64,000 bases of DNA from positions 124,001-188,000 of the forward strand of contig NZ_CP060397.1 in assembly GCF_015840715.1 (NCBI RefSeq), read 5' to 3'. A program made the translations under genes and the position numbers. The notes under the pieces were generated by a model that saw only the letters and a list, made by a program, of their open reading frames with translations, was not told where the DNA came from and searched no databases. The first letter of the stretch is position 1. Each line of letters opens with the position of its first letter. Shown here piece after piece: positions 9,808 to 21,703 of the stretch. Source of the DNA: Synechococcus sp. CBW1004 (lineage in GTDB: Bacteria > Cyanobacteriota > Cyanobacteriia > PCC-6307 > Cyanobiaceae).

Positions 9808-9975
9808 CCTGGGCAGGGCGGCAGCCGTTGGCAGCGCTCCGCGATCGTCGGGGCATCGCCGCTGCGGCCGCCCCGGTGAGCAGCCTCTACGCTCGGCCCA
9901 TATGACCACGGCGTTCAGTCCCGGTTGTTCCGGCAGACGTCCGTTTCTGATTCACACTTTCGCATCCCTGCGCTG

Positions 9976-12900
9976 ATGGACGCCGACAAGACCTGTGTGG
10001 CGGGATTTCCACTCGTGTCGTTCGTGTGCCAGACCGACGCGGATCTCCTGCCACATTTTGTGCGCTGGTATCAGCGCCTTGGGGTGGATCGCTTCCTGCT
10101 CCTGATGCATGGCAGCTGGGATGACGACGTGCGCCGGGCGGTTGTTTCCCTTCCAGGCGTCGAAGCCATCGCGGCTCCAGATGGTGTGTTCTGCAAGCAG
10201 CTCAAGTGCGACGCGATCACGGAGGTGGCACGGCGATTCCGAGGCGAGTGGGTGGTGTTCGCCGATGCGGATGAATTCCTCGAGATGCCGGCAGCGGATC
10301 TCCGCGCGATGGTGGACATGCTCGAAGCTGCCGGCGTCGAGGAGCTGTACGCCAGCCTGCTGCAGCGCGTGGCGGCGGACGGCAGCCTGCCGGAGGTGGG
10401 TCCGCAGAGCGATCTCGATGCGCTGTTCCCGCTGTTTCATGCGGGCCTGTGTGAGGACATGGGCCTGGCGGTTCCCGCCTGGAAGAGCAAATATCCCTTC
10501 GCCCGGGTCGGGCCTGATTTCTACTATCAGCGAGGCAATCACCTACCTGGCAATTTCCGCTCGGTGGCCCATGTGCCGATGCGGGCAGTGCTGCATCACT
10601 TCAAATGGCGCAGTCGTCTGTATGCGGCGTTCGCGCGCCAGCGCGGCACGGGGACGAACTTCGGCGAGATGGCCGTCTACCGGCAGTGGCTGGAGACCCA
10701 TGGCCGCCTGCCGCTGGAGGGGGCGAAGCCCTGCTCGCGCGCGGCGCTGGAAGCCGAGGGCTGGCTGCGTCGTCCCACCCAGGAGGAAGGCCGCCAGCTC
10801 GAGGCCCTGATTCAGGAGCGATCGGCAGGGGCGGCCTCGGGCCTGCGGGTGGGCTTCGTCACCTTTGAACTGGGCGGACCCGGCACCCCCAATGGCGGCA
10901 TCGCCACCGCCATCTCGGCCCTGGCCAAGCTGCAGGCGGCCCACGGGATCTCTGTGGAGGTGTTCTATTGCCCGTTCCACATGCCCAGGGAACTGCCGGC
11001 GCTGTGGTTCGAGTACTGGTCGACCTTCGGCGTGACGCTGCACTACATCCCGCGTCTGGCGGCGGATGAGGAGCGCACGCTCGAGACCCACGAGGTGGAG
11101 CAGGCGATCGTCGAGGCGGTGCGGCGGGCGGGTCGCTTCGATCTGCTGCATTTCCATGACACCCAGGGTTTTGCGGCGGCGTTCACGATGCTCAAGGCCG
11201 CGGGTCTGGCCTTCACCGAGACGACGCTGGCGATCACCACGCACGGCGGCACGCGCTGGCACAACGAACCCAACGGCACGCCCTGGGACGAGGCGGCCTA
11301 CGAGCAGGAGCTGGTGGCTCAGCGCCTGTGTGATGTGGTGGTATCGCCCAGCGCCTACCTGATCGAGTGGAATCGCGAGCATGGCGCGCTGCCAGGACGG
11401 GAGCGGGTGCTGCCCAACGTGCTGGAGCCGGAGAGCAAGTCGTTCACGCCGGCGGTGGATGCAGCCGTGCTGCCGGGGTGCGTGGCCTTCTTCGGGCGGG
11501 TGGAGATTCGCAAGGGCTTCGATCTGTTCCTCGCCGCCCTGCGCGAGTTGGTAACCACGACCGATCTGAGGCCGGAGGTGCTGATCCTGGGGCGCTTCGG
11601 CAATGGCTATTCGCAGGAGCGTTTTGACGCGGAGACGGCGGATCTGCCGCTGCCGATCACGCACCACCGCTCGCTCAATCCCCAGCAGGCCCTGCGGATG
11701 CTCAAAGACCGGCGGGCGCTGGCGATCATGCCGTCGCGCCAGGAGAACTCGCCCTATGTGGTGTACGAGGCGATGGAGAATCAGCTGCCCTTCCTGGCGA
11801 GTTTCACCGGCGGCACGGCCGAGCTGATCCGCAGTGAGGACCGGCCTGATGCCGAACTGCCGGCGGATCCGATCGCCATGGCCACCAGGATGGCCCGGGC
11901 CCTGCGGGAAGGGCTGCGGCCGGCGCGGCTGGCGATCGATCCTCTCGAGATCGAGCTGCGCAATCTCACCACCTGGCGGAGCCTGGCTGCGGAGCGGGGG
12001 CAGCCTGCCGACGGACCCGGGCAACAGGCGACACCTCCCCTGGCCAGAGTGCCGCTCAGTGAGTGGCGCCTGGCCGCACGCCGCGATCCGCACGACATCG
12101 TGGCGCTGGTTCCGGATGGCGATGCGGTCTCGGATGAAACGCTGCAGGGGATGACCCGCCTGCTGGCCCGCTCGCCCATCGCGGATGTGGTCGAGCCGTT
12201 CTGCCACGTGGTGGAGGAGGGCAGGGGCCGGCAGATGACGTCCCTTCAGATCAGGACAAAGGCGACGCCTCAGGAAGCGGCGCTGATCACCGGAGCCCTG
12301 CCGCTGGTGCTGCGTGCCGGGGTGCTGGCGGAACTGGAACCGGTGCTCGCCCCTGTCAGGCAGGACCGGTTGTTCGGCATCTTGATGGAAGGCATCCAGG
12401 CCGCGGGCAAAAGGGTTCTGCCGGCACTGATCAATGTGGGCACCCGTCGATTCAGCCCTGGGCTGGAGGCACGATCCCTGTGCAATCGGCTGTGGCTGCC
12501 CATCGGCCGATCCAGCATCGTGGACAGGACCACGGTGGCTCCCATCGACATGTCTCAGCTCTGCGGTGTGCTCATCACAGATCCCTATGTGGCGATCTCG
12601 ACCTGGTCAGAGTCGGCTCCCTATGGAGCGCTGTCGCTGTTCCCCCAGGCGTTCCAGGGGCGGCCCTCCCTGCATCTGATCACCCTGGGAAGCTCGCTGC
12701 TCTGGGCCGTCCCCGATGAGTTGCCACGTCGCCTGGCGGAGGCAGCCGAACGCTGGCCGCAGGCCCGCTTCCGGGTCCTGGCTTCCGATGCGGTGGAGCT
12801 GCAGGCCCTGCGGGAGGCCGGTCTGCCGGCGCTGCTTGGAAATCTGAACATGTTCGTGAGCGAGCAGGACTTTCACCCGCCCCACGAGGCGGCGTCCACA

Positions 12901-14094
12901 CCGGCCTGGGATGCGATCTGCATCGGGGCGCTGGAGTTGCGTGAAAACCATTTCCTGGCCAGGCAGATCCCATCGCTCGCATTGGTTCATCACCGCTACG
13001 AAGGCATGGAGGACGTGGGGGAGGAGGTGCGCCGGCTGTTGCCGCAGGCGACCTATCTCACCGATGATCTGGAAAGCCCGGAGGGCTTTTTCTATCCCTC
13101 AAACGATCAGCTCAGCAGCTGGATCGGCCAGTCGGCCACGGGGGTGGTGCTCTCACAAACCAATGGCAGCTGTCCAGAGAGTGTGCAGATGCTGCTCTGC
13201 GGCACACCTGTCGTCTCGGTGGCGAACATCGGTGGACGGGATCACTTTCTTCATCCCCCCCACGCCGTGCATGTGGCCGCAACACCGGAGGATGTGGCTG
13301 CGGGCGTCGCAGAGCTCAAAACCAGGAGGCTGTCCCGTCAGGAGGTGTATCGGGCCACGCTGTGTCGCTTGCAGGAGGCGCGCGTCCGCTTTGCCGCTGA
13401 TGTCGATGTGGCCATTGCCGAGGAGTTCGGCCCTGGCCTGCCTGGAGTCGATGTCACGCCGCTGATTGGTGAAGCTGCGCGCTATCGCAAGGCATTCGAT
13501 GTGCTGGGTGAGGGCCTTGCAACAGTCCCTGAGGGCCAGTCCAGCCATGAGAGCATCACCGGTGCTGCACCTTTGCTGGAGTCGCATCATGCTTCACAGC
13601 CTCAGCAAAGCAAGCCCAAGCCGATGGTGGCGATTTCGGAGAGCCACAGTCGATTCTCTCCCGAGGCCATCAGGCTCAAACTCCAGACAGCCGAGCAGAT
13701 GATGAGTCAGGGCAGCAGCATGGAAGACGTCTGCTCCTTTCTTGAAGTGCCGGCGATCACGTTTCAGCGTTGGCGGCAGCACTACGGCGGATTAGGGAGT
13801 AATGCCGGCCAGAGAAGGCGAAAAGTCGGCCCTTCAAAACCTATTTGGGATGATCAATCTGCGCTCCCAAGCCGACAAGTCCTGGAGACGACTCGCCACA
13901 AGAATCAGGGTCGGAAGGGGGTTGATAGCCTCGATCTGCTTTCTACCCACGATTCAGTTGAGGTACAGCAGCTCAAACGTCAACTTCAGGAAGCGCGTGA
14001 CGAGGCAGATCTCCTTCTGATTCAATTACATAACCTGCAGCTTGCAATGAATCCGAACTATTCGTCATCCATTGATGCAACCACAAATGTATGA
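9976..14094 (+). CDS. Giant multi-domain glycosyltransferase with C-terminal transposase-like HTH and coiled coil
   Basis: From ATG at 9976 (a TTG at 9925 is the alternative) the product has 1,372 residues. Domain 1 resembles the GT92/Glyco_tranf_2_4 type, with a DADEF metal-binding motif at residues 97-101. Domain 2 (about 285-680) is a GT4-type GT-B fold: a GGIATAI nucleotide loop, GRVEIRKGFD, and an E-x7-E pair at E590/E598. A third region (about 690-1190) has GT-B-like features such as CGTPVVSVANIGG. The last part (from about 1,227) reads like the helix-turn-helix of IS3 OrfA proteins (VPAITFQRWRQHYGG), followed by a heptad-rich helix near 1,328-1,360. It probably builds surface polysaccharide. 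The gene borders an AT-rich mobile region, and its own last 500 bases are less GC-rich. Confidence 0.8.
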   Translation: MDADKTCVAGFPLVSFVCQTDADLLPHFVRWYQRLGVDRFLLLMHGSWDDDVRRAVVSLPGVEAIAAPDGVFCKQLKCDAITEVARRFRGEWVVFADADEFLEMPAADLRAMVDMLEAAGVEELYASLLQRVAADGSLPEVGPQSDLDALFPLFHAGLCEDMGLAVPAWKSKYPFARVGPDFYYQRGNHLPGNFRSVAHVPMRAVLHHFKWRSRLYAAFARQRGTGTNFGEMAVYRQWLETHGRLPLEGAKPCSRAALEAEGWLRRPTQEEGRQLEALIQERSAGAASGLRVGFVTFELGGPGTPNGGIATAISALAKLQAAHGISVEVFYCPFHMPRELPALWFEYWSTFGVTLHYIPRLAADEERTLETHEVEQAIVEAVRRAGRFDLLHFHDTQGFAAAFTMLKAAGLAFTETTLAITTHGGTRWHNEPNGTPWDEAAYEQELVAQRLCDVVVSPSAYLIEWNREHGALPGRERVLPNVLEPESKSFTPAVDAAVLPGCVAFFGRVEIRKGFDLFLAALRELVTTTDLRPEVLILGRFGNGYSQERFDAETADLPLPITHHRSLNPQQALRMLKDRRALAIMPSRQENSPYVVYEAMENQLPFLASFTGGTAELIRSEDRPDAELPADPIAMATRMARALREGLRPARLAIDPLEIELRNLTTWRSLAAERGQPADGPGQQATPPLARVPLSEWRLAARRDPHDIVALVPDGDAVSDETLQGMTRLLARSPIADVVEPFCHVVEEGRGRQMTSLQIRTKATPQEAALITGALPLVLRAGVLAELEPVLAPVRQDRLFGILMEGIQAAGKRVLPALINVGTRRFSPGLEARSLCNRLWLPIGRSSIVDRTTVAPIDMSQLCGVLITDPYVAISTWSESAPYGALSLFPQAFQGRPSLHLITLGSSLLWAVPDELPRRLAEAAERWPQARFRVLASDAVELQALREAGLPALLGNLNMFVSEQDFHPPHEAASTPAWDAICIGALELRENHFLARQIPSLALVHHRYEGMEDVGEEVRRLLPQATYLTDDLESPEGFFYPSNDQLSSWIGQSATGVVLSQTNGSCPESVQMLLCGTPVVSVANIGGRDHFLHPPHAVHVAATPEDVAAGVAELKTRRLSRQEVYRATLCRLQEARVRFAADVDVAIAEEFGPGLPGVDVTPLIGEAARYRKAFDVLGEGLATVPEGQSSHESITGAAPLLESHHASQPQQSKPKPMVAISESHSRFSPEAIRLKLQTAEQMMSQGSSMEDVCSFLEVPAITFQRWRQHYGGLGSNAGQRRRKVGPSKPIWDDQSALPSRQVLETTRHKNQGRKGVDSLDLLSTHDSVEVQQLKRQLQEARDEADLLLIQLHNLQLAMNPNYSSSIDATTNV

Positions 14095-14230
14095 ATATAC
14101 AGGGCATTCTCGCGCCTGAAATATGAAAATTACTCGATGAACGGCATACTTATGTTTGTTTCTTGCATTCGAATCTCTTCTCCCGCCGCATTTATAGGCC
14201 TAGGGCCTCATGATGCGGCCTTGAGCCCTT

Positions 14231-14705
14231 GTCTATGAGACTTTCGAGGCTCACCTCAGCGCAAGGGGGATGACCGTGCGGCAGAGAACGATCAACGATC
14301 CGACCTTGATATCGGCACTCGGCTCCACGAAGAACAAAGCCGGAGAGCTGAATCCGAAGATACATCAGAAGACGGTAGAGAAAAAATCCTATTATCGCCG
14401 CCCGGGAGGCTGAGTCTACGGGATGAAGGTCCACCTAGGTGTGGACAAGGACTCAGCTCTAATTCACTAAGTTGTGAACACTTCTGCCAACATGAATGAC
14501 CTGACCTACGTAGACTTGATCGAGACGGCCCTAGCCGGAACGGCTTCTGCTTGAAGTAGGCGCACATCCGCGCAAATGGCGAGCACCCCTTTTGGGTGAC
14601 AAGCATCAGATCGGCTTTCAGAAGAACCGGCTGCGTGGCATAGTGAAGAACCGCCATAAGGTCAATGTGCTGTCGGCGCTGACCAATCTGTTTTTGGCAT
14701 AGCGA
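14231..14705 (+). pseudogene. Degraded IS5-family transposase remnant
   Basis: Conceptual translation on the plus strand in shifting frames gives recognisable IS5-type transposase pieces in the right order: RQRTIND.TLI and STKNKAGE from 14,279 on, then GMKVHLGVDKDS near 14,422, a segment like NTSANMNDLT near 14,475, and the C-terminal FQKNRLRGIVKNRHKVNVL block ending about 14,705. A TGA and several frameshifts interrupt it. The same motifs are intact in the transposase gene at 16,905-17,888, but the two are clearly different elements (KNRHKVNVLSALTNLF versus RKNNLKLTMLFALANL). I see no inverted repeats. It is a fossil of an older insertion. Confidence 0.8.
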
Positions 14706-14965
14706 TGGTTGATCTTGATGCTGTTAGGGGTAAAATAGTAGTTCTTGAGACTAAAGTGCGTCGTCCAGTTCCACTCAAAGAATAGGTAAGACATGTGCCT
14801 GACTGTGATGGAGAATCTTGAGCCTAACCAGAGGCCCAGTCGTCGAGAGTCATACCTGAGCCGGTCTTCAAATCCCTGTTACCAAGAGAGTCCTTAGAAG
14901 AAAAGAACAAGAGAGACCTGTTGTGAGATTTGAGGTAAAATTACAGGATCCTAACCGCTCCTCCT

Positions 14966-16132
14966 TTGACTCCAAGACCCAGGCTGCTTCTACATATCGG
15001 TACTGAAAAAACGGGGACCACTGCGATTCAAGAGTATTGCCGCCTTAATTCCAACAGATATGCTGAACTAGGGGTGATAATACCGGATTATCTGGGTTGG
15101 TCAAACCACTCACTCTTTACCTGTTGTTTTTACTCGGACGCAAGAAAGGATGAAATGGCGTTAAAGCATGGAATGAATTCATTGGAAGAACGTAGTCGAA
15201 AAAGAAGTGAGACTCTGTCCCGCTTAATACAACACACACTTTGCCATCCGGAAGGCACATTTCTAATATCTTCAGAGCACCTTCATTCGCGTCTGACCAA
15301 TGAGGAAGAAATTGAATCTCTCGCTAGGTTTCTTTCGCCACTATTTGACTCAGTTACTATTGTTTTATACATTCGAAAGCCCATTGATACGGCAATATCG
15401 GCATGGTCGACAGGCGTCAAATGCGGACTAACTGGCACCTCTCTTCCTTCGCCATCAAACCCATATATTCACAATCTCTGCATGCATAAAGAATCAATCC
15501 TACGCTGGAGCAATTATTTTGGAGAATCTAACTTATGCGTGCGACTCTTTAGAAGAGATGCCTTATTCAAGAATGACCTGATTCACGACTTCGTCGAATC
15601 ATGCGGCATTGGCTTCAGTTCTGATATGATAATCCCGCCTAAGACTAACGAGAAGCTGGGACTTGATGGCATCCTATTCCTTGCCGAAGTCAACAAGGTG
15701 CTGCCATTAATAATTGATAACAAGCCCAATCCAGTTAGAGGTAATATTGCCAATTACTTTTCGAAGCACTTTTCTGATTCTCCTGCTTATATTCCTTCAG
15801 AAGACGAAGTACTTAGCTATTCAAGCTATTATAATCATTCAGATCTGTGGGTCAAGGACAATTATTTTGGTCATCTAGACTCTCTCTGGGGAGAAGAGAG
15901 TCGGTTCCCCATGGTTCAGGCTAAAAACGATAATCTCATTTGGGATGCAGATATCAAATCGGACTCCAGACTGGGTTATTCGCCTGAGAGTGTGTCTCGG
16001 TTGCTAACCTTACTATCGCAAGTATGGGTAGACAAGAGCCATCGAATTATCTCCCTTGAATCGGAAAACTTGCGTCTAATGGATGAGCTAAGTCAGCTGA
16101 AAAAAAGTATTATTCTTGACGAACAAGATTAG
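14966..16132 (+). CDS. Sulfotransferase-family protein
   Basis: A 388-residue protein beginning at TTG (14,966), the only usable start after an in-frame TAA at 14,936. The N terminus carries a P-loop-like PAPS-binding segment, HIGTEKTGTTAIQ. A second motif, LYIRKPIDTAISAW, matches the 3'-phosphate-binding region of sulfotransferases. The C terminus ends in a short helix rich in Leu, Glu and Lys. It probably transfers sulfate to a carbohydrate or other surface molecule. It is markedly AT-rich compared with neighbours and sits between IS5 remnants, which suggests horizontal transfer. Exact substrate is unknown. Confidence 0.75.
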   Translation: MTPRPRLLLHIGTEKTGTTAIQEYCRLNSNRYAELGVIIPDYLGWSNHSLFTCCFYSDARKDEMALKHGMNSLEERSRKRSETLSRLIQHTLCHPEGTFLISSEHLHSRLTNEEEIESLARFLSPLFDSVTIVLYIRKPIDTAISAWSTGVKCGLTGTSLPSPSNPYIHNLCMHKESILRWSNYFGESNLCVRLFRRDALFKNDLIHDFVESCGIGFSSDMIIPPKTNEKLGLDGILFLAEVNKVLPLIIDNKPNPVRGNIANYFSKHFSDSPAYIPSEDEVLSYSSYYNHSDLWVKDNYFGHLDSLWGEESRFPMVQAKNDNLIWDADIKSDSRLGYSPESVSRLLTLLSQVWVDKSHRIISLESENLRLMDELSQLKKSIILDEQD

Positions 16133-16845
16133 AATTGTAGTTCCGATTAAATTAGCATACTTTATTTCAGATTAAGAACTCCTGAGAGAGGGAGATCGGG
16201 GCCAGGCCGCAAAAAGACTGGTCCCGAATCCACATCTGCTCGCAGTTCATGTTCAAGCCGGTGGCGCGCTCATGAGTTCTGATTGTTGCCTCATCCCTGC
16301 TTCTGTGACGAATAGAGGATGTAGCCAGTAGGCAAAAAGGACTTCATGAAGCTCCAGTCGGCTTCTTCTTGCCAACCGCTAGCACTTGCTGTCCGAATTT
16401 TCTTCAGTGTGGGCGAGACTTATAGCCAAAGGCATTCCTGACATTCGCATTCATCGTATGGATCAGGATATCTGTCACCTCTCTGGCTTGATTGAACAGT
16501 GAGAGATCGGTTGAATGATGGATATCCACCGGAGCACAGACGGTATCGATCAATAATCAACCCTGCTTCGTTGGCTTCTTTGCGGGTGGCATCTTCTGTT
16601 CGCCAGCGCTGGTGGATCCACCTTAACTGTTGATGGGATTCTCTTGTACCTGGGAACCAGATGAAGGAATCAGATTCAGGCAGTGTCAAACGATGCGTCC
16701 AATGTAGTCAGCTAAGGAAGCTCTGATCAAGACCGGGAATTGAGCGCAAGCGTGTCTCATTCTCGTCAATGAGACACAAGTGGGGTATTTTGTCCTTGGC
16801 TACTCGCCAGGTGCTCCAATCCAGGGCCTGACTGGCTTATTTCTC
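16133..16845. other. Gene-poor AT-rich stretch
   Basis: No convincing coding region is present. A minus-strand frame at 16,420-16,689 (89 codons) has no recognisable motif or start context. The one structural feature is a perfect inverted repeat at 16,752-16,777. The composition is like that of the neighbouring transferred genes; the stretch may be decayed mobile DNA. Confidence 0.5.
16752..16777. repeat. Perfect 10-bp inverted repeat with 6-base loop
   Basis: GTGTCTCATT is followed by the loop CTCGTC and by its exact complement AATGAGACAC. There is no following T-run, and it lies over 600 bases from the end of the sulfotransferase gene, so it is not a typical terminator. It lies about 100-150 bases outside the IS5-type transposase gene. 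Confidence 0.75.
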
Positions 16846-17947
16846 GTGAGTTCCCCGATCATTTTTGGCTGCTCACCCTCAAGATGGCACACTTATTCTG
16901 TCATTTACGCTGTAGAAGGACAACGTTCGCGCACCATCCAGAGATTGGCGAGGGCAAACAGCATCGTCAGCTTGAGGTTGTTCTTGCGGATGCCTCGGTA
17001 GAAGACCTTCCGAAATCCAAACTGGCACTTGATGATCCGAAATGGATGCTCCACCTTTGCCCTGACATGTGCTTTCGCCGCCTCCATCAGATCCAGCAGT
17101 CTTCCCTCTGGGGTGTCCGGTAGAACTCGGCGCTGTCCGGGCTTCATGGCGATGCGCATCTCTGCTTCGCAGTCCTTGAACGCCTCACGCTTTTCGATGC
17201 CGATGTGGCCAGAGTCGCCGTAGATCACGCGTTCCTCGCCATGGACGCGATCGGGTGCCGTGTTCAGCTCATGGACGTTGGCAGCCGTGCTCACCACGGA
17301 ATGGACCAGACCCGAGGCTGCATCCACACCGATGTGGCACCGCATCCCAAAGAACCACTGGTTGCCTTTGGCCACCGAGTGCATTTCAGGATCCCGCTCG
17401 CCCGTCTTGTTCTTGGTTGAACTGGGAGCGTTGATGATTGTGGCATCGAGGATCGTACCCTCCTTAAGCATCACGCCCTTCTCCCGCAGGCTCTGGTTCA
17501 CCGTCTCCAGGATCTGCTCTGCTATCCGATTCTCTTCCAGGAGGTGGCGGAAGTTCAGGATCGTCGTCTCGTCAGGGATCCGGTCCTCAACCATGTCGAT
17601 CCCAGCAAAGCGGCGGAAGCAGGGGGTATCGATCAGCATCTCCTCCATCAAGGGATCGGAAAGCGTGAACCACTGCTGCAGCAGGTGGATGCGCAGCATC
17701 ACCTCCAGCGGAAACGGTGGGCGCCCGCCCTTGGCAGAAGGCCTGTGGTACACAGGCGAAATCAAGGCCAGGAAAGGATCCCAGGGCACTGTGGCTTCCA
17801 TCTCATCGAGGAAGCGCTGCCGGCGCGTTTTCTTCTTGGCGTAGGTCTGCTCGTAGTCCGTGAAACCCAACTGGAGGGGGGCCGCCATCCGCTGCCAGTC
17901 TCATTATTGGAACTGTACTGATTCTATCGGGTTTTTCAGGGGTTCCC
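16846..17947 (-). mobile_element. IS5-family insertion sequence (ends tentative)
   Basis: The transposase gene is intact, so an IS of about 1.1 kb is expected. On the minus strand the sequence outside the start contains GGGAACCCCTGAAAAACC, which looks like an IS5-type terminus. The opposite side has only a weak match (GAGTTCCCCGATCATTTTTGG). I could not find a clean inverted repeat or target duplication, so the borders are approximate. Confidence 0.4.
16905..17888 (-). CDS. IS5-family transposase
   Basis: The 327-residue protein has the full IS5-type layout: an N-terminal DUF772-like region (GRPPFPLEVMLRIHLLQQWF), first catalytic Asp in GTILDATIINAPSS, second in VIYGDSGHIG, and Glu in VEHPFRIIKCQFGF. 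No frameshift is seen, so it may be active. It starts with ATG at 17,888. It lies among AT-rich polysaccharide genes but is itself of higher GC content, consistent with a separate arrival. Confidence 0.95.
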   Translation of the reverse strand: MAAPLQLGFTDYEQTYAKKKTRRQRFLDEMEATVPWDPFLALISPVYHRPSAKGGRPPFPLEVMLRIHLLQQWFTLSDPLMEEMLIDTPCFRRFAGIDMVEDRIPDETTILNFRHLLEENRIAEQILETVNQSLREKGVMLKEGTILDATIINAPSSTKNKTGERDPEMHSVAKGNQWFFGMRCHIGVDAASGLVHSVVSTAANVHELNTAPDRVHGEERVIYGDSGHIGIEKREAFKDCEAEMRIAMKPGQRRVLPDTPEGRLLDLMEAAKAHVRAKVEHPFRIIKCQFGFRKVFYRGIRKNNLKLTMLFALANLWMVRERCPSTA

Positions 17948-18103: not shown

Positions 18104-20047
18104 TCAAACCCTCTTAATATTTGCATTCAAGATGTCAATTAAAAAAGGACTCTGCTTCGCGTATGTCCAAAAATAGTTTGCAAGCTTCTCTGAAGGCTCG
18201 TTCCAAGGCTTAATGTTAGAAGTGTAGTGAAGAATCCGAATATTATTCCCGGAGCTATAATAATCTTCTTTTTCATCCTCCAAGAGATCTGCAAAGTTCT
18301 TTTCCTGTCTGCTGACTAGCCCATGATGCCATTGAAAATTCCAGCGTTGATCTATAAATGTGACTTGACCTTGGCAGACAACATTCAATGTATCTTGGTC
18401 AGGGCACGCCAGCGAATCGTTAATGCTTAAAAACGACAAGCACTTCTGTTTGGTATTATTGCGAATAAAAGCCTCTGTATTTATTATTATAACACCCGAA
18501 TTGAAATACTCTTTACGGCTGAATCTAAGCCTGTCTTCTAGGTATGAAGCCATGAACTTATGGACAGGATTCTTGGCGGCTGCAAGAATATTTTCCCCAA
18601 GATCAACTTGGTAAAGCTCGTGCAAGTCAGACATCACAACAATATCACAATCAAGATAAATGACTTTGGCTAAATATGAGAAAACCTCAGCAATAATAAG
18701 TCGATAGTACATTTCAATACTGTAGTGCGCCCTTGTATAAAGTGTATCGATGTCAATGAAAGGACTTACATCTATGAGTTCAATATGAAGATTGGTCGTT
18801 GACAAAGAACGTACACGCTGGATTGTTTCGACCTCAAGGTCTGTATAAAATATAAATAAGTATATCTTTGTTTTTGTGGTGGATTTGATCGATTCAATGG
18901 CGACAGCTAAATAAGGGATATAAGCCTCGTTCGATGCCATGACGATAGGTATGAATGGTTCAGGATCATTCAGAAGGGTCTGTTCGATTCTTTTGACCTG
19001 CTCGTGAACGCCTCTCTGATAATCATCAAGGACTCCTTGCTGATGAAGTTTATCAAACAAAGGATTTGACTCTGATAAATGATAAACTGGCTTCAGAAAT
19101 AATGATAAGCTATCGCTAAAAGCATCGCCCGTGCAACTCGATCCGTCGCCCCAATGCCTCAAGAACAATGCTTTTGCATGACTTTCTAAGGCAGTTCCCA
19201 TACAGAACGTGACAGTTGCTAAATTGTCAGATATCAAATCGTAAGCTATTAAGCGTACCACTTCTTCATGAAGACTCAGCAAGCCTCGGCTTAGCAAGAA
19301 ATCATAGATAATTCGGACAATAGCAGCTTGGGCCATGTGAATCGCAATTTTTGACAAGGTAAACTTGCGACCGCCAGTGACCCCAGTTCCGTAGGAATAA
19401 ATGTAGAGACTGTCGCCAATAGAATCAATAGAGACCGCATATAGTAAAATAAAAAACTGAAGCAGTAAATCCTGGGCTTTATAGATGGGCTGAGTCGGAA
19501 GATTGGAGGCCGCAACTTTGACTAGCCGTGCATTGTAGATCTTGTTCCAAATCGTAAAACCAAAGACTTTCGATTCAAAGCAATGACGTAATAGATTACC
19601 CGTAATGCGGTCTTTTGACTTGTAAGTTAAAAAGTCTTCGAACCACTCAATCTGACCAGGGGTAGCCTTGACAGCTTTAACGGCTACTCCAAACTGTAGG
19701 ATATCTACTTGTTTGGTTTCTATTGCGTTGTAGGCCGTTTCGCATGCAAACTTCTCTAGTGCATCATCGGCGTCGACAAACATAATGTACTTTCCATTGG
19801 AAGCATGAATTCCGACTCTTCGGGAATAGCAAGCACTCTTATTCTCTTCGTTTGTAATTACCCTTAATCGCTTGTGTTGCTTGTCAAGATCCGTTAGGAT
19901 GCGAGGGGTTTCGTCGGTCGAGCAGTCATCAACAACAATAATCTCAATATCAAACAAGGACTGTTGTATTATGCTGTCGACGCATTTCCCGATTGAGTTT
20001 TCTGCGTTGTAGGCTGGAACAATGATGCTGACCTTGGGATTTTGCAT
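18104..20047 (-). CDS. Two-domain glycosyltransferase (GT2 + GT8)
   Basis: The 647-residue protein begins with a classical GT2 domain (VSIIVPAYNAENSIGKCV; VVDDCSTDET near 39-47; metal-binding VDADD at 91-95). A linker of about 150 residues follows, then from about residue 366 a GT8-type domain (IVMASNEAYIPYLAVAI) with the metal-binding motif YLDCDIVV, whose DCD is at 466-468. The two transferases probably add consecutive sugars to a surface glycan; donor and acceptor are unknown. The gene is strongly AT-rich. It starts with ATG at 20,047, with an IS3 element 37 bases upstream that may have separated it from its original promoter. The GT8 half also resembles LPS galactosyl/glucosyltransferases. 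Confidence 0.85.
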   Translation of the reverse strand: MQNPKVSIIVPAYNAENSIGKCVDSIIQQSLFDIEIIVVDDCSTDETPRILTDLDKQHKRLRVITNEENKSACYSRRVGIHASNGKYIMFVDADDALEKFACETAYNAIETKQVDILQFGVAVKAVKATPGQIEWFEDFLTYKSKDRITGNLLRHCFESKVFGFTIWNKIYNARLVKVAASNLPTQPIYKAQDLLLQFFILLYAVSIDSIGDSLYIYSYGTGVTGGRKFTLSKIAIHMAQAAIVRIIYDFLLSRGLLSLHEEVVRLIAYDLISDNLATVTFCMGTALESHAKALFLRHWGDGSSCTGDAFSDSLSLFLKPVYHLSESNPLFDKLHQQGVLDDYQRGVHEQVKRIEQTLLNDPEPFIPIVMASNEAYIPYLAVAIESIKSTTKTKIYLFIFYTDLEVETIQRVRSLSTTNLHIELIDVSPFIDIDTLYTRAHYSIEMYYRLIIAEVFSYLAKVIYLDCDIVVMSDLHELYQVDLGENILAAAKNPVHKFMASYLEDRLRFSRKEYFNSGVIIINTEAFIRNNTKQKCLSFLSINDSLACPDQDTLNVVCQGQVTFIDQRWNFQWHHGLVSRQEKNFADLLEDEKEDYYSSGNNIRILHYTSNIKPWNEPSEKLANYFWTYAKQSPFLIDILNANIKRV

Positions 20048-20114: not shown

Positions 20115-21200
20115 TCAGGCAGCCATCGCCAATGTAGCCGGAGTGATGCCGTTTTCTGGTGGTGGCGGATTGATCCAGACCACCTCCGGTTGATGCCAAC
20201 AGCGAATGCTGCGGCTCCAACGACGCGGGTGCAGCTGGCGGGCCTGTTCGTAGACCTCAGCCCGTTGGCGAGCAATGGAGACAGCCCGGCCGGTGTGTCG
20301 CTGAACAGGTGTCACGAACCGGATGCCGCTGTGGCGGTGCCGCTCGTTGTACCAGTCCACGAACGTCATCACCCAGCGGCAGGCGTCGGCCTGGCTGGGG
20401 AAGGGGCGCCTTGGGTAGTCCGGCCGGTATTTCACCGTCCGGAACAGCGACTCCGAGAAGGGGTTGTCGTTGCTCACCCTCGGCCTGGAGAAGGATCTGA
20501 GCACACCCAGCTCCTCCAGGCGGCTTTCCAGCGTGGCGGCCCGCATGGCATTGCCGTTGTCGGCATGGAGGATCAAGGGCTGAGGGCGTCGGCGACTGAT
20601 GCGCTCCCGCAGGCAGGCTCGGCTGACGAGATCAGCCGCGATCTGGGCGTCTTCCCGTTCAGCGACATCCCAGGCCACGATCTTGCGGCTCCATACATCG
20701 ACCACCAGATAGAGGTAGAGCCAGATGCCCCGGACGCTGGTGGGCAGGTAGGTGATGTCCCAGCTCCAGACCTGATTCGGCCCGTCAGCCCTCAAGCGCG
20801 GAACAGGACGCGGCTCCTGCGGAGGGCGGGCTCGGCCGCGGCGGTGCGCCTGCCCATGGGCGTGGAGCACGCGGTAAAAACTGCGCTCTGAACCGATGTA
20901 GAGCCCCCTGTCCGCCAGTATCGGCACGATCTGTCCCGGCGGCAGAGCAGCAAATTCCGGTTCGTTGCAGGTCAGCAGGATCCGCTGACGCTCCTCGTCC
21001 GTGAGGCGATGAGACACGTGGCGTGGACTGCCTTTACGGCGATCCAGGCCGCCCCCATCACCGGCGAAATGACGCCTCCAGCGCTGCAGGGTCGTCAGAC
21101 CCACGCCCAGCAGCTCGGCGATCTGGCAGGCCCGTGCGCCAGCTTCCATACCGGCATCGAGGATCTCCAGGGCCTTGCGCCGATCCTCGGGCGAGGTCAA
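20115..21200 (-). CDS. IS3-family transposase OrfB (rve integrase)
   Basis: The 361-residue product carries an N-terminal helix-turn-helix (LGVGLTTLQRWRRHF), an HTH_21-like region, and an rve catalytic domain. The catalytic residues are visible as WDITYLP (Asp), HADNGNAM (Asp) and NPFSESLFRTVKY (Glu). It starts at a TTG that overlaps the orfA stop as TTGA (21,200-21,197), so it may be made by translational coupling or by frameshifting. The coding frame is complete. Confidence 0.93.
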   Translation of the reverse strand: MTSPEDRRKALEILDAGMEAGARACQIAELLGVGLTTLQRWRRHFAGDGGGLDRRKGSPRHVSHRLTDEERQRILLTCNEPEFAALPPGQIVPILADRGLYIGSERSFYRVLHAHGQAHRRGRARPPQEPRPVPRLRADGPNQVWSWDITYLPTSVRGIWLYLYLVVDVWSRKIVAWDVAEREDAQIAADLVSRACLRERISRRRPQPLILHADNGNAMRAATLESRLEELGVLRSFSRPRVSNDNPFSESLFRTVKYRPDYPRRPFPSQADACRWVMTFVDWYNERHRHSGIRFVTPVQRHTGRAVSIARQRAEVYEQARQLHPRRWSRSIRCWHQPEVVWINPPPPENGITPATLAMAA

Positions 21201-21703
21201 TCCGCCTCGTCCTCTCCCCAGTAAGCCTGGATCTTTTTTGAGGCGATCAGCAGTGCCGCCGCCTCCGCCAGGGCTTTGTCCTTGCGGGGCAGCTCCTGCT
21301 GCAGGCGTTTGATCTCCCGCCGATCAGCCTGGTGGCGCTTCTCGAGGTCCTTCTGCTCGGCCATCGTCAGCAGCGGCTGTGCGTTGGCATCCTCGGCCGC
21401 CTGTCGCCAGCGGTCCACCTGCTCGGGGAACAGGCCCCGCGCGCGGCAATAGGCCGCAAGCTCGGTGCCGTTGAGCCCCGCAGTCTCCAGGACCACGGTG
21501 AACTTGTCGCTGGAGCCCCAACCCTCGGGATCCTTCTGGCTGGCGGGCACCACCTCCCCCTGCAGGCGCCAGGCCTTGCGCCACTTGTAGAGGGTGATCA
21601 CGTGGATACCCAGCTCGGCTGAGATCTGGGCCACGCTCTGCCGGTGCGGCGGCCCCATCCGACGACGGACATCAGCCTTGACGGCCTCGCTGTAACGACG
21701 CAT
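21197..21703 (-). CDS. IS3-family transposase OrfA
   Basis: The 168-residue protein has an N-terminal helix-turn-helix (VAQISAELGIHVITLYKWRK) and a C-terminal coiled coil (DLEKRHQADRREIKRLQQEL) expected for OrfA multimerisation. It starts with ATG at 21,703 just inside the right inverted repeat and overlaps orfB by 4 bases. Confidence 0.9.
   Translation of the reverse strand: MRRYSEAVKADVRRRMGPPHRQSVAQISAELGIHVITLYKWRKAWRLQGEVVPASQKDPEGWGSSDKFTVVLETAGLNGTELAAYCRARGLFPEQVDRWRQAAEDANAQPLLTMAEQKDLEKRHQADRREIKRLQQELPRKDKALAEAAALLIASKKIQAYWGEDEAD

Follow-up and report, generated by a model that had tools for sequence, protein, structure and literature searches.

In the insertion sequence IS911, the helix-turn-helix (HTH) is the part that binds DNA specifically and the leucine zipper is the part that multimerises, as stated in an excerpt of the published work (PMC2909936). 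In eukaryotes, the HTH of Tc1/Mariner transposases has been captured by F-box genes, according to an excerpt of a further study (PMC12062965). Among the top-listed titles and abstract openings of searches in the open PMC literature, none described an IS3 HTH on a glycosyltransferase (GT). To our knowledge, reports of transposase-domain capture are rarer for bacterial metabolic enzymes. The multi-domain glycosyltransferase described here very probably ends in a composite tail, in which an HTH of 48 residues from IS3 OrfA stands in frame behind the enzyme and is followed by a basic linker and a coil of a type found in the genus.

The enzyme and its glycosyltransferase modules

The gene lies at 9976..14094 of the window, the 64-kb stretch of DNA that was analysed as a whole; it and all its parts are given on the forward strand. 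The window corresponds to G000:C1:124001-188000, and the genome is a single contig of 3.67 Mb. An ATG at 9976 yields a protein of 1,372 residues (P0001), an alternative TTG at 9925 one of 1,389, and the frame is open to 14094. The protein exceeds the Pfam cut-offs for PF13704, PF13439, PF13579, PF00534 and PF13692, which places it among the GT2- and GT4-type glycosyltransferases. Its N-terminal GT2-like module, Glyco_tranf_2_4, covers residues 21–111 (10036..10308; PF13704, 47.0 bits, cut-off 27.5). A GT4 module made up of Glyco_transf_4 and Glycos_transf_1 occupies residues 307–646 (10894..11913; PF13439 at 40.0 bits and PF00534 at 55.1 bits, both over cut-off). The C-terminal GT-B-like module, residues 928–1141 (12757..13398), is 26% identical to a 336-residue protein of the same genus (E 6e-15 as a single pair, 4.5e-10 in the genome search), the best C-terminal relative in a search of 42 genus genomes. 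Pfam Glyco_trans_1_2 reaches only 13 bits near residues 1071–1133, under its cut-off of 25. The alignment with the 336-residue relative covers residues 928–1141, and the last 231 residues of the enzyme are therefore extra relative to that protein. They open with a linker, residues 1142–1225 (13399..13650), delimited by the end of homology to the nearest C-terminal relative found. The enzyme would presumably act on a surface glycan.

Relatives of the enzyme as a whole are scarce. A comparison with 200 other genomes of the family gave no match at 1e-30, and at 1e-20 only the GT4 part matched, in two genomes of the class. In both searches the best two or three candidates per genome were scored, so weaker relatives of the whole enzyme may be missed. 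Apart from the GT4 part, no portion of the enzyme is strongly matched in the sampled genomes. No solved structure in the PDB matched the whole enzyme by sequence at E up to 0.001, a plasmid search with the DNA of the gene gave no match, and terminator and promoter scans stayed at chance level.

The OrfA-type helix-turn-helix

The HTH spans residues 1226–1273 (13651..13794) and is recognised by profiles, DNA similarity and predicted fold. A first-pass annotation had read the end of the enzyme as an OrfA-like module, possibly a captured transposon fragment, with the OrfA order of HTH and leucine zipper; the peptides it quoted are present and in frame. It had pointed to a profile search of the enzyme end against HTH_Tnp_1 (PF01527), and the tail alone passes with 27.7 bits (E 3.2e-6, cut-off 24.1). 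The whole protein scores 24.0 bits, just under the same cut-off, and in a six-frame search of the genus the HTH of the enzyme reaches 27.3 bits, above it. Our own profile, built from 33 distinct OrfA HTHs in fetched loci, gives the tail 58.3 bits.

An IS3-type element is resident in the same genome (G000:C1:321102), and the best blastn match to it covers window 13661-13790, with 68.5% identity to its OrfA gene over 130 bp (E 7e-8). The encoded resident OrfA is 45% identical to the HTH, the alignment of HTH and OrfA running over 48 residues without a gap. Another genome of the genus supplied the closest OrfA found, with 53–54% identity at protein level. The resident OrfA itself scores 63.7 bits for PF01527 and 51.5 bits for the NCBIfam IS3 model, which was built for the whole transposase and has a cut-off of 160; a relative with fused OrfA and OrfB (L087) reaches 268.9 bits against that cut-off. 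The local DNA alignment of the HTH scored 55, compared with a maximum of 24 among 300 shuffles, and the HTH DNA beat 300/300 shuffles against each of two OrfA genes. A chance resemblance is ruled out by the PF01527 score, the blastn match and these shuffle tests. The HTH thus appears to descend from an IS3-family OrfA gene related to copies in many genomes of the family; its placement in a tree is poorly supported. Since the genome still contains a relative of the donor, the captured piece (~144 bp) can be delimited at the DNA level.

An origin of the tail in phages was rejected, as no match was present in phage records, and a scan of viral contigs with the resident OrfA found nothing. A separate plasmid search returned only four Rhodococcus IS3 matches. 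A search of PDB sequences with the tail gave three matches at E 0.15–0.55, two to VP24 at the HTH and one to a chimera at the coil.

The first-pass annotation had also asked whether the HTH is structurally intact, and it is predicted to be: AlphaFold2, run with a three-row alignment, placed helices at tail residues 21–36, 41–48 and 52–62 with a pLDDT of ~89, within a tail model of modest overall confidence (mean pLDDT 66.7, pTM 0.32). Foldseek of the tail model against the PDB gave no significant match; its top row was TnpE of Shigella (2rn7, E 0.19), and 2jn6 stood at rank 28. Both are presumably transposase-type HTH proteins. Together, the profile match, the DNA identity to the resident OrfA and the three predicted helices bear out the reading as a transposon fragment. 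It holds for the HTH only, about 144 bp, where protein profiles, DNA similarity and an OrfA-like codon composition agree.

Base composition changes along the gene. The G+C content drops from 64–68% in the body of the enzyme (third positions 72–86%) to 58% in the HTH (71%), 53% in the linker (49%) and 44% in the coil (40%), in line with the less GC-rich end described in the first pass. Seven OrfA genes have a G+C content of 57–60% and a third-position G+C of 68–79%; the 71% of the HTH lies within this range, the values of linker and coil outside it. This composition profile fits a composite tail.

Constraint on the HTH was assessed against the majority of 39 OrfA HTHs, a reference that excludes three more divergent sequences as well as OrfAs with stops inside the HTH, the latter dropped at extraction. 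Of the 19 strongly conserved OrfA residues, 14 are present in the tail. At base columns conserved to 95% among the 39 OrfA HTHs, the enzyme differs at 3/28 first, 8/35 second and 5/9 third codon positions, and its divergence from the OrfA majority amounts to a dN of ~0.40 and a dS of ~1.06 (dN/dS ~0.37). These values bear on a possible though rather unlikely explanation, according to which the tail is a neutral passenger, insertion-sequence debris that became joined to the gene at its 3' end and is translated without a role. The dN/dS of the tail exceeds that among OrfAs, which is 0.18 between two OrfA subgroups, and this speaks for such a passenger. However, the HTH has neither stop nor indel, its fold is predicted to be intact, and two recognisable protein modules of different origin share one frame. 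When neutral evolution was simulated to equal divergence, a stop arose in 83% of runs and a protein identity as high as that of the tail in 6/5000. Part of the divergence arose inside the constrained IS lineage, so the simulations argue against mere decay without proving that the tail is used. As one genome only carries the fusion, selection after capture is inseparable from selection within the IS3 lineage.

The linker, the coil and the rest of IS3

Behind the HTH follows a basic linker (13795..13953), predicted to be disordered with an AlphaFold2 pLDDT mostly below 50. In the searches of family and genus genomes with the whole tail, none of the listed matches limited to this linker retains an open homologous frame; a linker without relatives and a G+C content falling along the tail are what a passenger could show. 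The tail then closes with a coiled-coil helix of the LLQLHQVQ type (13954..14049; profile match 13960-14040), which corresponds to the predicted helix 119–150 of the tail, with block means of the pLDDT of 85–94.

The first-pass annotation had likened this coil to the leucine zipper of OrfA. Profiles were built from 21 zippers and 21 coils, excluding any locus of the window gene. With the OrfA zipper profile the tail scored no higher than 1.6 bits, inside the range of the shuffles for that profile (maximum 5.3), whereas the genus coil profile gave 26.2–29.5 bits, compared with a maximum of 18.1 in heptad-keeping shuffles (494/500 scored). The layout differs as well: in OrfA the zipper begins within a few residues of YGGM, and in the enzyme ~53 unrelated residues separate HTH and coil. 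The identification of the coil as an OrfA zipper does not stand. Its sequence indicates instead a coil of a different type, present in many genomes of the genus. A search with the enzyme coil reached 20/41 same-genus genomes at E up to 1, its own included, with a best E of 8e-4 elsewhere. Because part of the members of the coil profile were found with the enzyme coil as query, the score of that profile is flattered; the core EAR-EA-L-LLQLH-Q recurs several times within some proteins of the genus, and the motif thus exists independently of the query.

The coil motif like EAREEAELTLLQLHQVQEELEHYFL was observed at the same-genus loci L061–L075, often in several copies per protein. Carriers of the EAREEAELTLLQLHQVQEELEHYFL-like motif at these loci mostly lack Pfam matches and include a small protein present in several genomes. 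In a Pfam scan of eight proteins from coil-motif regions of the genus, GT domains exceeded the cut-off in two, coil-family matches stayed under it in one, and the other five gave no match.

Other parts of an IS3 element were sought behind the enzyme. A tblastn search with a complete OrfAB protein against 13301-15000 gave a match at 13597-13827 only. No OrfB with a DDE domain was found overlapping or after the HTH, by tblastn in the same interval or by DNA shuffles, in which OrfB DNA was not above chance (56/100 shuffles as good, one element). The DNA of the OrfA leader was likewise not above chance (30/300 and 32/300 shuffles as good for two elements). Zipper DNA was inconsistent, with 4/300 shuffles as good for the resident element (L002), a borderline result, and 299/300 for L009. 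A comparison of copies, together with the IS5 copy that the resident IS3-type element interrupts, served to place the left end of that element; its leftmost 20 bases have no match in the 64-kb window at up to three mismatches. A whole OrfA or IS3 remnant was rejected, as no trace of an IS left end, leader or OrfB was found.

That HTH and coil are one captured OrfA is highly improbable. The order of the two elements is alike, the NCBIfam IS3 model aligns from the HTH across the coil at 24–29 bits, far under its cut-off of 160, and the zipper-DNA test with the resident element was borderline. Against a single OrfA stand the low zipper score beside the high genus coil score, the failure of the second zipper-DNA test and the ~53-residue spacer, of which OrfA has almost none.

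Most probably, a multi-domain glycosyltransferase gene lying among several insertion sequences acquired a single IS3 HTH in frame. The HTH would persist as a compact domain of three helices, retained or tolerated with a linker on either side, and might serve as a spacer or as a surface for interactions, and not as a regulator that binds DNA. The C-terminal coil could oligomerise the enzyme or tether it to partners that carry the same coil.

A DNA-binding glycosyltransferase, in which the HTH binds DNA, such as the ends of IS3 or a site within the glycan region, and the new coil replaces the zipper as dimeriser, we consider improbable. Its HTH fold is predicted to be intact, the order of HTH and coil could rebuild a dimeric binder, and an excerpt of the IS911 work assigns specific DNA binding to the HTH and multimerisation to the zipper (PMC2909936). 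With the zipper gone and another coil ~53 residues away, an OrfA-like dimer on DNA would form only if the coil takes over that role, but the spacer is long and predicted to be disordered. Moreover, 5/19 of the strongly conserved OrfA residues are substituted in the enzyme, including an H to Q change in the third helix, and the window contains no copy of the resident element's left end at up to three mismatches; the HTH may nevertheless bind other sites. Quite improbable, too, is the further idea that, through a captured HTH and a host coil standing in for the lost zipper, a surface-glycan enzyme binds DNA of its own region or IS3 ends and thereby couples glycan synthesis with the control of genes or with the activity of the element.

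Distribution, surroundings and known systems

The tail was searched in overlapping genome sets, in which its own genome is counted. In the family, 42/201 genomes had matches at E up to 0.01 and 60/400 at 1e-6, the latter among the best 9–10 candidates per genome; the genus gave 29/42 genomes at 0.05 and the class 12/388 at 0.001, again among the best 9–10 candidates per genome. Among the matches listed in 400 family, 42 genus and 388 class genomes there is no second copy of the HTH–coil fusion, and the same tail on other cyanobacterial glycosyltransferases, which the first pass had proposed to look for, is likewise absent from them. HTH matches outside the window gene lie, among those listed, in frames of at most 533 codons; the frame of one class match, in G385 (E 9.5e-4), was left outside the classing as transposase or enzyme. 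PF01527 gave 125 matches in the genus, with 35/42 genomes at E up to 0.001, and the enzyme frame, at 1,404 codons, is by far the longest among them. The 11 other PF01527 frames over 340 codons were all read by eye as transposase frames or as OrfA with read-through, a reading that left out six rows with frames of 278–334 codons. Two pattern scans of genome contigs, which find close relatives only, gave 13 and 16 stretches, none of them confirmed. A known glycan-enzyme domain as the source of the tail was rejected: neither Pfam nor NCBIfam gave a match of that kind, and a relative with the complete tail, which could have revealed such a domain, did not turn up among the listed matches.

A fusion known from a single genome is also what the passenger explanation would lead one to expect, and so are the insertion sequences nearby. 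A decayed IS5-type transposase remnant (14231..14696, forward strand) starts 136 bp past the enzyme stop and was detected by tblastn with the window's own IS5 transposase. It consists of two stretches, 14231-14503 (E 9e-15), which contains stops, and 14535-14696, which lies in a different frame. Its identity to the intact IS5 gene of the window (16905-17888; NCBIfam IS5, 310 bits, cut-off 140) is ~40%. The reverse strand carries a two-gene IS3-family element at 20115-21703, with an HTH_Tnp_1 gene and an integrase-core gene, the second scoring 192.5 bits for NCBIfam IS3 (cut-off 160). The HTH of this element bears only a weak resemblance to the tail (39%, E 1e-3), so the element is not a likely donor.

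Several further features were observed in the window and elsewhere in the genome. A similar but frame-disrupted copy of the 20115-21703 element lies near 3,468 kb of G000:C1 (L004). The resident IS3-type element (L002, ~321 kb of G000:C1) sits at the end of an IS5-type copy: the 578 bp up to L002:1414, where the element starts, are 100% identical to window 16714-17291. On the forward strand, 14966-16132 encodes a protein starting LLLHIGTEKTGTTAIQEY, sulfotransferase-like by eye, with no Pfam match over cut-off. This LLLHIGTEKTGTTAIQEY protein likewise ends in a short heptad-rich stretch. On the reverse strand, 18104-20047 encodes GT2 and GT8 domains in one chain of 647 residues. The same genome has 12 matches to PF00502 (phycobilisome), which mark it as cyanobacterial; as a control, the same search among 14 genomes was positive only in Synechococcus elongatus. 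At G000:C1:3229565-3238610, three equal-scoring phycobilisome gene pairs stand in a row, which looks like a threefold repeat.

If the tail is used, it illustrates how insertion-sequence debris can provide glycan-enzyme genes with novel combinations of domains; otherwise, the locus is a clean example of a translated passenger.

The enzyme resembles several known systems in part. A cyanobacterial multi-domain glycosyltransferase (L046; GT4 and GT2 by Pfam) likewise combines several GT modules in one chain and has, by eye, a heptad-rich stretch towards its C-terminus; unlike the enzyme, it has no HTH match at E up to 0.01. With IS3-type OrfA (PF01527) the enzyme has the HTH in common, gap-free over 48 residues at 45% protein and 68.5% DNA identity, but here the HTH is fused to an enzyme, and leucine zipper, OrfB, leader and IS left end were not found. 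With LLQLHQVQ-type coil proteins of the genus (among L061–L075) it shares the core EAR-EA-L-LLQLH-Q, and two of the regions have a glycosyltransferase gene no more than 2 kb away from such a protein. Those coils usually continue into EELEHYFL and are often repeated, whereas the enzyme has a single copy that ends soon after and stands behind an HTH. The F-box capture, as an excerpt of that study presents it (PMC12062965), differs in being eukaryotic and in involving Tc1/Mariner, and resembles the enzyme in that a transposase HTH has been joined to an unrelated protein.
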